This document shows positions 2,396 through 6,274 of a stretch of DNA of 41,134 nucleotides, in pieces. This DNA comes from Candidatus Methanoflorens crillii. GTDB taxonomy: Archaea > Halobacteriota > Bog-38 > Methanoflorentales > Methanoflorentaceae. The first letter of the stretch is position 1, and the number at the start of each line of letters is the position of its first letter. The position numbers were made by a program, and so were the translations under genes. The stretch spans positions 1,090 through 42,223 of the forward strand of contig PMMR01000055.1 in the NCBI GenBank assembly GCA_003162175.1. The letters run 5' to 3'. The notes below the pieces were generated by a model, which saw only the letters and a program-made list of their open reading frames with translations, was not told where the DNA came from and ran no database searches.

Positions 2396-2545
2396 TTACG
2401 ACAGGGCCCAGTCTCTTATATACACTTCATATACATTCTCCGGCAGCCGATGCTTGTAGAATCGCCAATCGACTCCCGAAACGCCGTGAGTGAGTCGGCA
2501 TCTGTATAGATAGAACGTCTTCCCGATAAGCAGTTGCTTTTCAAG
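2396..2545 (-). pseudogene. LPxxVxxVY-motif remnant A
   Basis: A 49-codon open stretch without a start codon, bounded upstream by an in-frame TAG (2546-2548) and ending in TAA (2396-2398). It encodes KHRLPENVYEVYIRDW near its end. The same motif returns in frames at 3045-3128 and 4016-4156 on the same strand, with third-codon-position differences, which suggests descent from a coding sequence. Probably the 3' end of a decayed gene. The parent family is not recognised. Confidence 0.35.
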
Positions 2546-2587
2546 CTAGCATCGGAGCCGCAGAGGATTTCCAGGAAAAGAGATCCT

Positions 2588-2914
2588 TCAGATATCATAA
2601 CCTGTGGCCGAATTGTACTGTTCTCTTATCCTCTTCGCAGTATCGCCGGGCACTCTCTCCTCCAGCAGGTCTAGAAACATCCCGGCAGCCTCTGGGGAGA
2701 TGCACAGCAAGCACTCTGAGCCGTCCAGGATAAGGTCGGCCAGATACTTGAGGTCCTCTGTTGATAGCCTCTTCAGCCGGTCCTGTAAATCCTCATCGTC
2801 GGTTGCAAAATGCATGGAAACCGGTGGCAGGATGGAACGGTAATGGGTGGGCATACTCGCCTCCGGGGCAAGCTTCCTTAAGATCTCGTTATCCTTCTCA
2901 TTGAGCTTTCTCAT
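2588..2914 (-). CDS. Small hypothetical protein
   Basis: A 108-residue soluble acidic protein with no recognised domain. It starts MRKLNEKDNEIL and has a conserved-looking centre ILPPVSMHFATDDEDL followed by two amphipathic helices. I chose the ATG at 2914 because AAGAGG lies 6 bases upstream; the frame can be extended to 3004, but that adds a Cys/Arg-rich segment with no ribosome site. It lies between remnants B and A of the LPxxVxxVY motif, so it could belong to the same accessory gene group. Function unknown. Confidence 0.65.
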   Translation of the reverse strand: MRKLNEKDNEILRKLAPEASMPTHYRSILPPVSMHFATDDEDLQDRLKRLSTEDLKYLADLILDGSECLLCISPEAAGMFLDLLEERVPGDTAKRIREQYNSATGYDI

Positions 2915-3044
2915 GTGCGTCCTCTTGAAAGGGAGTAACCATTCTCGTAGTAATATCTTGCGACACCCCGTGGACAGATCGCAGTGCCTTTGCTGCCCAG
3001 CCAAGATTTCGATGCATAATGAGTGGATGGCGCCTACCTGCGGC

Positions 3045-3128
3045 TTAAGATGTTGCGAACCGCGTATCTCTCCAATACTTCAAATACACATGAAATACGT
3101 ACTCAGGCAGCGGAGACTTCCACTCACC
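3045..3128 (-). pseudogene. LPxxVxxVY-motif remnant B
   Basis: A 27-codon frame between two stops (TAG 3129-3131 upstream, TAA 3045-3047 at the end) that encodes EWKSPLPEYVFHVYLKYW. It matches remnants A and C at Leu-Pro, Val, Val-Tyr and Trp. There is no start codon, so this is read as the decayed end of a gene of the same kind. Confidence 0.35.
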
Positions 3129-3178
3129 CTACGCGCTCACAAAAGCTTTATCACATCTATTTCATCTCTCAATAAATT

Positions 3179-3979
3179 ATGAGCGTTGAGCTCAGTTCAC
3201 TTGAAAAGACGTTGGTAGTCCCGCTGTGGCACAGAGCACAGACAAGCAAAGCACACCCTGAGCTACTGAACGATGTTAAAGCTATTGAGCTCGTCAACCA
3301 TCTTGACTACAATTTTTCAATCTTCGAGCAGCGCTTCACTGTTGAGGATAGCTTCAGGTCTGCGGCACGAGCGCGGCAGTTCGACGACAAGCTTCGAGCG
3401 TACATGAGCACACATCCTGATGCGTCGATAATGAATCTCGGCGCAGGCCTCGATACAGCCTTTTACAGGGTCGATAACGGATCCATTGAATGGTACGACC
3501 TCGATCTCCCGAACGTCATCGCTCTGCGCAAACAATTACTGCCTGAAACCAATCGAGTCAAGTACATCGCCAAGTCGCTGTTTGATATAAGCTGGTGTGC
3601 CGATATGGAGCACACCGATAACGGCATCTTCATAGTAGCAAAGGGTATTTTGTGGTTCTTTGAAGAGGCGGAGATTAAGCGCTTTTTCTCATCACTCGCT
3701 GATGCGCTGCCGGGAGCAGAGCTTATCTGTGAGGCCAGCTCTACGCTTGGCGCGCCGATTGTCAATGACTCATTAAGGTCCGTTGATATGGAGGTAGAAG
3801 TGAAGTGGGAGTTGGGGGACGCACGCGTCATTACCCAATGGGACAGCCGCCTAACGCTCATCGACCAGACTCCGGCCTACTTAATTCCGCGAGATCCAGC
3901 GTGGGGAGAGCAAACCGTGGAAAACATAGATGCGAGCGAGCTGACCAACACTTTATCTATTGTTCATCTGTGCGTGTAA
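3179..3979 (+). CDS. LCM/PPM1-type SAM-dependent methyltransferase
   Basis: A 266-residue class I methyltransferase of the leucine carboxyl methyltransferase-like family, which includes many small-molecule O-methyltransferases (polyketide-type Tcm enzymes). The SAM-binding loop is seen as NLGAGLDT (86-93), followed by the acidic strand end EWYDLDLP (104-111) and the AKGILWFF segment near residue 155, all typical of this family. The ATG at 3179 has no Shine-Dalgarno; an AT-rich CTTTATCA element about 30 bases upstream suggests a near-leaderless transcript. It is flanked on both sides by decayed frames and stands alone. The acceptor substrate cannot be predicted. Confidence 0.85.
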   Translation: MSVELSSLEKTLVVPLWHRAQTSKAHPELLNDVKAIELVNHLDYNFSIFEQRFTVEDSFRSAARARQFDDKLRAYMSTHPDASIMNLGAGLDTAFYRVDNGSIEWYDLDLPNVIALRKQLLPETNRVKYIAKSLFDISWCADMEHTDNGIFIVAKGILWFFEEAEIKRFFSSLADALPGAELICEASSTLGAPIVNDSLRSVDMEVEVKWELGDARVITQWDSRLTLIDQTPAYLIPRDPAWGEQTVENIDASELTNTLSIVHLCV

Positions 3980-4015
3980 TGCCCCCGCGTTTTGCGACAC
4001 TCAACTCGCTGAAGA

Positions 4016-4156
4016 CTAAAAATCATGACAATGTTTGAAACGGCCATCTTTCCAATACCGCATATAAACATCATGCACGTTATCAGGCAGCGCATGCTTG
4101 TAATGCCCCCACTCGCTCGATCTAGAGCCGCTGTCGGAGCCTGTATTAGGCTCTTT
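4016..4156 (-). pseudogene. LPxxVxxVY-motif remnant C
   Basis: A 46-codon frame (TAA just upstream, TAG at 4016-4018) without a start codon. It encodes a Ser/Gly-rich lead, then GHYKHALPDNVHDVYMRYW and a short basic tail. It is the longest and best preserved of the three motif copies. It overlaps the small hairpin at 4137-4158. Confidence 0.35.
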
Positions 4157-4405: not shown

Positions 4406-5037
4406 CTATAACGTTGGGATATGGGGCGTCAGTTCGGCCCAGTCGCTGCCGACGGCCTTTTTAATGAGTTCCTTTGTGCCGGCGAAGGCAGGTGCCGGCA
4501 TCACCATCTGCCAGATACGGGTCATGTTCTCACGATCGTCATGCCCCATCAACGGGAACATCCACGCCACTACTTCCGGAAACCGCTCCTGGGGAACCGT
4601 GCTGGACATGATGCCAACCGCCTTCCCTTGCTCGGGCCAAGGCGACTCGTTCGGTGAAAATCCGGTGGAGGTGGGTATCCTCCTTACCCAGGTGGATATT
4701 GAGATGAAAACGGAACGCAGCGGTGGCCCGGGCTGTTGTTAACGGGTCGCGTGAAGCGTACGTTTTACTCAACTCGTCAAATGCCGAGTCCAAACCACGG
4801 TGGTCTTTCACATAGGCCTCAGCAACCAGCGGCGACATCCTCGAGCACGGGGAAGATAGCTAACTCTTCTCTGTGGGCGAGCCAGACCAATACTTCGTTG
4901 AAGAACCGGAAACGCTCGACGGTGGCGGCAAGACCCTCATCTCCCCGTGCTGCGTCCAACGCTGCGGCATCAATACGCTCCATGTCATGCCCGAACGCAT
5001 TGTGAAGCGCCCGTATCGCATCCACAGGTTCTGCCAC
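4406..5037 (-). pseudogene. Hemerythrin (HHE) domain protein, two frameshifts
   Basis: Three abutting frames join into one hemerythrin-like protein of about 210 residues. Frame 1 starts with GTG at 5037 behind an AGGGGG ribosome site and reads to IFPVLEDV. A +1 shift (or 2-base loss) near 4832 leads to PLVAEAYVKDHRGLD and on to HLGKEDTHLHRIFTERVAL. A second +1 shift (one extra G) near 4635 leads to EQGKAVGIM and the normal end. Candidate metal ligands are visible: His in ALHNAFGHD, HREE, KDHRG and FHLNIHLGKEDTH. Family members bind a di-iron centre and sense or carry O2 or handle iron and NO. There is no other stop within the joined frame, so this is either a recent pseudogene or two sequence errors. 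Confidence 0.8.
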
Positions 5038-5362: not shown

Positions 5363-6274
5363 TCAGGGAAACAGCTCACGCAGATTGATCTTAAATTCGC
5401 CCAGTTTTCCACCGTAGTTACCCGCGGAAATTCCGACGACACCGTCGATGTCCAAGGTGGCTTCAATTCCTTTCTTCATCGCCTCTCTAACTGTTTCAAG
5501 CGACGTTCCGTTAATCACTATCTCGGGGATATACCGGACGCCCTCTGGAACCTTGTGGATCTCCCTCAATCTGTGTTTAAGCGAAGGACAGAAGGGATCA
5601 TTTGTGGTAGGACCTATCAACGGAAAATGGGTTTCAGGCTTCGAACCTGCAGCGCACACATCGAAAGGCGTCACTACGCCCGTTACGCGGTGAATTGCAT
5701 GCAGGGCATTTTCTCCAGCTTTTCTTAGAGCTTCTTTTGTTGAACACATGATCCAGAAATTCGCACCCATTACGCCATGGGCGTACCCCAAACGCCTTTC
5801 AATGATGAAATCTGGGACCATAAGTGGCACAACAATAACGTTTCTACCAAAGCGTTCTTCCTCCCATTCATGTCCGTCTCCGCAATGCCCAATCCGCTCC
5901 ATCATATCCATTTTACCCTCTGCGTTCCGTAACGCATCGAAGACCGCGGTGAAGGGTTTAACAAGTATGTCTTGGCGAATCCTGTAGGAAAGTTCAGCCT
6001 CAAACTTGTGTAATGAAGCAGTGAAGGCGTTATTCTTGTCTAAACCTGCCCAGAGCTGCAGGACGGCTCCCTCGCGTTTATCTGGAGTCGCATCTTCGTC
6101 AAGCCACTTCTCAACGCCGCCTTCGACTCTACCAATCACAACTGAAGGTGTTGCCGTTGAGTCTTCGGCTGCACCGTGCAAAGTTGCCCTGTCGTCGGCC
6201 GTGATTATCACTCGGCAAAAAATACCTGCAAATGCCTCGGAATACGTGTCGTCAATTTCAGCTTTGGACGCCAT
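5363..6274 (-). CDS. ftr: Formylmethanofuran:tetrahydromethanopterin formyltransferase
   Basis: Transfers the formyl group between methanofuran and tetrahydromethanopterin in the cytosolic C1 pathway, in either direction (methanogenesis or methyl/alkane oxidation). At 303 residues it matches the family length of about 297. Family marks: IDDTYSEAF near the N-terminus, [11 protein letters not shown] near 225, and the C-terminal block [14 protein letters not shown] ending LRELFP. The N-terminal half looks divergent from textbook Ftr, for example a [12 protein letters not shown] stretch around 130-141, which suggests a paralogue. It stands alone, with no fwd, mch or mtd genes nearby, and faces away from a TrmB-type regulator across a 261-base gap. 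The ATG at 6274 has GGGAGG about 13 bases upstream. Function is secure at family level; whether it is the main Ftr is unknown. Confidence 0.88.

Follow-up and report, generated by a model that had tools for sequence, protein, structure and literature searches.

The three minus-strand stretches considered here lie in a window of 41,134 nucleotides, the whole piece of Candidatus Methanoflorens crillii DNA that was analyzed, and we are nearly certain that each is a copy of the final ~20 codons of a DNA-integrase gene, extending from about the codon of the probable catalytic Tyr to the stop codon of a tyrosine recombinase gene. We consider it probable, on balance, that these tails belong to an integron-like cassette system in which cassettes join at the 3′ end of the integrase gene itself, a site used by this enzyme, so that the C-terminus of the enzyme is exchanged. 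Sequence comparison shows the family, its copy number, the arrays, the recurrence of units with different neighbors, junctions at the tails, and the recurrence of integrase tails and flanks in tail-only copies; what we infer from it is that this enzyme carries out the recombination, that circles form as intermediates, that a re-tailed enzyme works, that the system is active at present, and where exactly the crossover falls.

The three frames carry the motif LPxxVxxVY...W on the minus strand at 2396–2494, 3045–3137 and 4019–4117, and, stop codons included, they end at 2396, 3045 and 4019 in the peptides ...THGVSGVDWRFYKHRLPENVYEVYIRDWALS, ...GEWKSPLPEYVFHVYLKYWRDTRFATS and ...SEWGHYKHALPDNVHDVYMRYWKDGRFKHCHDF, respectively. 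The original prediction had named these frames, their peptides and the following Trp, all of which are present; it placed the ends at 2396 and 3045 correctly, whereas the third frame ends at 4019 and not at 4016. Across many copies, codons vary more at the third position than at the other two, as it also stated. We define offset 0 as the first base of the codon right after the Tyr-Lys pair (HYK/HPLPE), which on the minus strand of the window is 4096 in site 3, 3116 in site 2 and 2452 in site 1. Site 3 (4019–4117, minus; DNA tail profile E 1.3e-21; integrase HMM positions 274–302) consists of a left half at 4097–4117 (offsets −21 to −1) and the tail codons with their stop at 4096–4019 (HALPDNVHDVYMRYWKDGRFKHCHDF). 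Site 2 (3045–3137, minus; SPLPEYVFHVYLKYWRDTRFATS) matches the profile at E 1.5e-17 and HMM positions 280–302, and site 1 (2396–2494, minus; E 4.5e-14; HMM 268–296) includes a longer integrase remnant (THGVSGVDWRFYKHRLPENVYEVYIRDW). Against the 41-kb window the profile recovers these three tails with no other match up to E 10; two of them (sites 3 and 2) were used to build the model, and the match at 2407–2475 (site 1) was outside it. The C-terminus of the patatin (near 530–570), which had been put forward as a looser copy, is unmatched by the tail profile, and we dropped it as a fourth member.

A 78-nt query found three further places in the same genome and matched 7 of the 60 genomes searched, every one from the same genus of peatland archaea, which is Bog-38 in GTDB and is equated with Methanoflorens in a passage of PMC10805028. 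One new copy, extended upstream, gave a 71-aa query that matched each of the 7 genus genomes 17 to 45 times (E up to 1), and this query led to intact proteins ending in the tail, with open frames of up to 537 aa. The search for further copies and intact relatives that had been proposed at the outset turned up many of the former as well as intact proteins ending in the tail, and the three frames are not isolated. They are indeed multicopy 3′ ends, as suggested, of an integrase and not of an accessory protein. All nine intact members examined match a PHROG integrase and two of the nine match Pfam Phage_integrase; a PDB sequence search with the integrase matched no solved structure. In an AF2 model (mean pLDDT 87.5), the best fold matches are tyrosine recombinases, with Z 15.8 to the archaeal Xer 4a8e and Z 13.2 to the SSV1 integrase domain (rmsd 2.7 over 146 residues), and a tyrosine recombinase catalytic-domain fold is predicted. 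All 19 of 19 members share R155, K187, R247, H270 and Y280 without variation; by position we take them to be the catalytic R, K, R, H and Y, with D245 occupying the position where many relatives carry His. By position, Tyr280 is the probable nucleophile, and in the AF2 model the tail is the helix 285–296 behind it. Outside the genus, the integrase has relatives in Methanoculleus sediminis, in Archaeoglobus MAGs and in a Methanomicrobiales MAG, and none was found in the viral contigs, phages and plasmids searched.

The tail profile has 222 matches (E up to 0.1) in 7 of 7 genus genomes (26, 35, 21, 37, 45, 24 and 34), which are drafts, 61–90% complete, the window's own genome being 81% complete. 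The 34 other genomes of the phylum have 0–2 matches each (10 of 34 have at least one), all weaker than E 0.003 with the exception of one in G036 at 4.2e-9. Methanoculleus, three Archaeoglobi and Methanomicrobiales AS06 each have their own integrase tail and otherwise only four weak matches (E 0.007 or worse), and therefore the arrays look specific to the genus. A 70-aa C-terminal profile of the integrase finds 176 matches versus 47 for a 70-aa N-terminal profile, a gap part of which may be accounted for by the better conservation of the C-terminal region (mean column identity 69% vs. 55%). Near-full integrases make up 27 of the 146 integrase-homologous copies, and 15 of the 27 are in one frame; both near-full copies in the host genome of the window are frameshifted. 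Stops or indels are frequent in the tails, and a frame of 45 nt stays open in 54 of 71 tail-only copies, versus 30 after shuffling.

Adjacent tails within 5 kb lie on the same strand in 53 of 58 cases and on opposite strands in 5, in loci that were taken around tails. Tails enclose 52 units with a median length of 945 bp, about one gene each; 41 of these hold an ORF of 80 aa or more, and the longest ORF runs along the tail direction in 19 and against it in 22. Within 3 kb of the 27 near-full integrases there are 12 tails downstream and 0 upstream (P 0.002, allowing for contig room). The 12 belong to 7 of the 27 integrases; the other 20 lack any tail over that distance downstream, and for 4 of these under 1 kb of sequence is available on that side. 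The cargo is diverse: 52 Pfam families are matched in 60 unit ORFs, and the 25 listed of these include flavodoxin-like, PNPOx, SfLAP, fasciclin, LCM methyltransferase, alpha-acetolactate decarboxylase, glutathione peroxidase and FTR families, while PADLOC assigns 18 defense families to the same 60 ORFs, one ORF apiece. Flavodoxin-like genes were seen in several units (L049, L003), some of them apparently fragmentary. FTR, a formyltransferase and core enzyme of methanogenesis, is encoded near tails at window positions 5363–6274 (minus), and 1 of the 60 unit ORFs elsewhere is also FTR. A hemerythrin-like gene at 4406–5037 (minus) seems to be split into several frames; in G006 it is a single 210-aa ORF (L151:450-1082, PF01814).

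Two cassette-like units lie between the tails of the window. Unit A (980 bp, 3117–4096) is enclosed by two same-strand tails and carries a plus-strand gene for a leucine carboxyl methyltransferase-like protein of 266 aa (3179–3979; PF04072 LCM, E 9.1e-10). Unit B (664 bp, 2453–3116) carries a minus-strand gene of 108 aa (2588–2914) without a Pfam match, whose ORF is kept in both sister species (G003 and G006). Window positions 2442–3114 are 89.2% identical to G003:C24 over 674 columns. The raw match begins at +2 of tail 2 and stops at +10 of tail 1; corrected for tail likeness, the left exchange point is at +29 (range +21 to +36) and not at +2, and the right-hand tail of unit B is not recognizable in G003. 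Most of unit B is 92% identical to G006:C185, and G006 carries units A and B in the window order, the homology of unit B ending ~110 nt before site 1. Left of unit B, G003:C24 resembles the ~65 nt left of window tail 3, a pattern suggestive of the absence of unit A from the matching junction in G003:C24, and only suggestive because the ~65-nt stretch is also present in L055.

Comparison between genomes indicates that the tails are likely junctions of exchanged units. Loci L049 and L067 have about 900 bp in common at 91–92% identity, ending at ...GGAAGCACTAYAARCA, and L063 and L122 share a block of 889 bp at 94% with a raw start at −1. The L050/L127 block ends at −1 and the L062/L123 and L131/L155 blocks at +10, and other blocks start at +7 (L067/L148, L129/L148) or +8 (L050/L061). 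Block ends fall at −15 to +20 in both partners 16 times, versus a mean of 0.7 and a maximum of 5 for anchors shifted by 150–1500 nt, and in at least one partner 25 times versus 8.2 (maximum 17). With random independent anchors (300 sets) the counts are 16 versus 0.03 for both sides and 26 versus 9.0 (maximum 24) for at least one; these anchors are unfair for pairs because homologous blocks share tails, and the shifted anchors were used instead. Among 37 pairs with the same downstream unit, a count that leaves out pairs between the related and unrelated thresholds, the left side is unrelated in 31 (28 between genomes) and related in 6. At random points the left side is unrelated in 182, related in 250 and between in 15, and the comparison of 31/37 with 182/432 gives a Fisher value of 1e-6 for points that are not independent.

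L070 and L072 have integrase bodies that are 86.5% alike and differ in tail and flank, and the tail of L072 with the first bases beyond it reappears in the tail-only copy L055 of another genome. The tail and flank of integrase L064 are 87.5% identical over 96 nt to the copy at L049:2936, with only 56% for the upstream part. Both patterns would be the expected trace of insertion at the integrase's own 3′ end. The idea of a portable C-terminal tag is borne out to the extent that the C-terminus acts as a movable module; the description of the frames as decayed falls short, since the copies look like borders of exchangeable gene units, more than decay alone.

The position of the exchange can be narrowed to a region. 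Raw block ends mislead because the tails are alike and shared blocks continue to the tail edge; by anchor shift, they number 16 at 0, 15 at −24 and 23 at +48. We therefore weighed each position, in ungapped comparison, against the usual likeness of two tails. Among 28 pairs, the corrected points lie at −10 to 0 in 4, at +12 to +38 in 7 and at +46 to +66 in 5; the remaining 12 lie at −35 or further left, some by way of indels that an ungapped test cannot handle. The points thus place the exchange within the tail and close to it, roughly −10 to +55 nt past Tyr-Lys, and do not narrow it to one spot, and a sharp crossover at −4 to +12, read from the raw ends, was dropped as the corrected points are not confined there. 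The same offsets remain a speculative candidate core of site 3 (4084–4100, minus), chosen for the best dyad and third-position conservation. The best inverted repeat of the site consensus, found by scanning, is CAAGCA-TCCGC-TGCCTG, centred at +4 with 5 of 6 pairs. Third positions of codons 283–287, relative to 288–296, are more conserved in tail-only than in integrase-attached copies (difference −0.186, CI −0.306 to −0.062, shared ancestry not corrected). Conservation in tail-only copies begins abruptly near offset 0, these copies being partly defined by their lack of upstream homology.

Left of site 3 there is a hairpin, GAGCC-TAATACA-GGCTC (4137–4153, minus), with arms as in the anticodon stem of tRNA-Asp. 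Hairpins like GGAGCC-TAATACA-GGCTC also occur in L055, L061, L124, L125, L130, L138 and L151; 9 of 14 locus matches are centered 37–73 nt left of nine tails, and 13 of 14 are on the strand of the nearest tail. The arms equal the anticodon stem of the tRNA-Asp adjoining integrases L072 and L073, with a different 7-nt loop. The genus has 22 matches to the pattern versus 3 to the reversed pattern, and some copies are without a tail and diverge directly after the hairpin. A tRNA is found within ~0.7 kb upstream of integrases L072, L073, L078 and L084, and in Methanoculleus sediminis (L083:9782-11062) a tRNA-Val gene lies within the 5′ end of the integrase ORF, on the opposite strand. A T-loop motif is present upstream of 10 of 18 integrases, several of the others having little upstream sequence. 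As several integrases adjoin tRNA genes, the enzyme may use, or may once have used, a further site. The likeness of tRNA sequences to the tail core is not above that of shuffled sequences, and a tRNA origin of the core was dropped.

In the cassette system that we favor, the joining site would start roughly 21 nt before the codons of Tyr280, the probable catalytic residue, and Lys281 and end 45–60 nt beyond them, and a cassette would have the form [integrase tail]-gene-[left half-site]. The integrase would insert the cassette at a tail site and leave one tail per joint, which would lengthen the array on the downstream side of the integrase. When the cassette enters the integrase's own site, the last ~20 residues of the protein would be exchanged, in part or entirely, for those of the cassette, and such re-tailing would keep start-less tails in coding condition. 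A further possibility, which we raise tentatively, is an independent archaeal counterpart of the integron in which each cassette has a spare C-terminus and the first in the array completes the integrase, which would let the array tune or switch its own recombinase.

Accretion of integrative elements is expected to leave repeats of the target gene's 3′ end, and the arrays could have arisen if elements with their own integrase inserted repeatedly at the 3′ end of a resident integrase and then eroded, the short units being leftovers and not cassettes; the site itself would still be genuine. The ssrA islands of Dehalococcoides, as described in parts of PMC3146451, are an example of many islands at one gene, and longer integrase bodies are kept in some of our copies. 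We nevertheless regard this account as unlikely given that near-full-length genes make up only 27 of the 146 integrase-homologous copies, that an ORF of at least 80 aa is present in 41 of 52 units (median 945 bp), and that small units recur across several species.

Neighbors could also have been shuffled without any site-specific event, if similar integrase 3′ ends recombined homologously or underwent gene conversion. This would fit tails that are alike and repeated, as well as corrected exchange points spread over the tail, and module swapping by homologous recombination is known for archaeal mobile elements (in a section of PMC8371274). The tails have ~66 nt in common at a mean column identity of 60%, which is little substrate, and such shuffling leaves the origin of sharp-edged tail-only copies and one-sided arrays unexplained; we judge it improbable. 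It is also quite improbable, in our estimation, that the tails are plain integrase pseudogenes of which the 3′ end is the last recognizable part. Stops, frameshifts and varied 5′ truncation are common, and the better conserved C-terminal region (69% vs. 55%) is as such decay predicts; the C- versus N-terminal counts (176 vs. 47) point the other way, shared blocks end at tails in different species, and unit neighbors change at tails, so that the recurring units largely disfavor it.

Integrons are the best known cassette-shuffling platform. Like integrons (IntI, attI and attC), including the archaeal ones covered in portions of PMC9668308, the system proposed here combines a tyrosine recombinase with an array downstream of it; its sites point the same way, its units hold about one gene each, and its cargo is common to several species. 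The array of small gene units downstream of the integrase is present, but only at 7 of 27 near-full integrases. None of 19 members matches any NCBIfam model at E 0.01, a library that includes an IntI model, and 6 sites folded as DNA have no unusual single-strand folding of the attC type (z −1.41 to 1.22). Integron cassette genes generally run in one direction, whereas here 19 run along and 22 against the tail, and here the site is inside the integrase coding sequence. Thus, we do not file the system as an integron, which it resembles in how it would work while falling short on tested integron features. In the “suicidal” archaeal integrases (SSV1, pTN3, pT26-2), the attachment site is inside the integrase gene, which on integration is broken into int(N) and int(C) and so loses its function, as part of PMC8371274 describes. 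Their site is in the 5′ part of the gene and overlaps a tRNA. Both they and this family are archaeal tyrosine recombinases with the site in the integrase gene, and several here adjoin or cross tRNA genes; here, however, the proposed site is at the extreme 3′ end and the gene retains an equivalent tail. The Dehalococcoides ssrA islands, in those parts of PMC3146451, share repeated site-specific insertion at one gene and diverse cargo, whereas they target a host RNA gene and here the target is the recombinase gene and the units are about 1 kb. We found no comparable system in the open-licence PMC literature.

If the proposal is true, a second and unrelated site design would mean that cassette platforms arose more than once, and the family would comprise a recombinase whose own substrate exchanges its C-terminus. 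The genus includes a dominant methanogen of thawing peat, and the tails would help archaeal genomics to trace genes that are exchanged horizontally.
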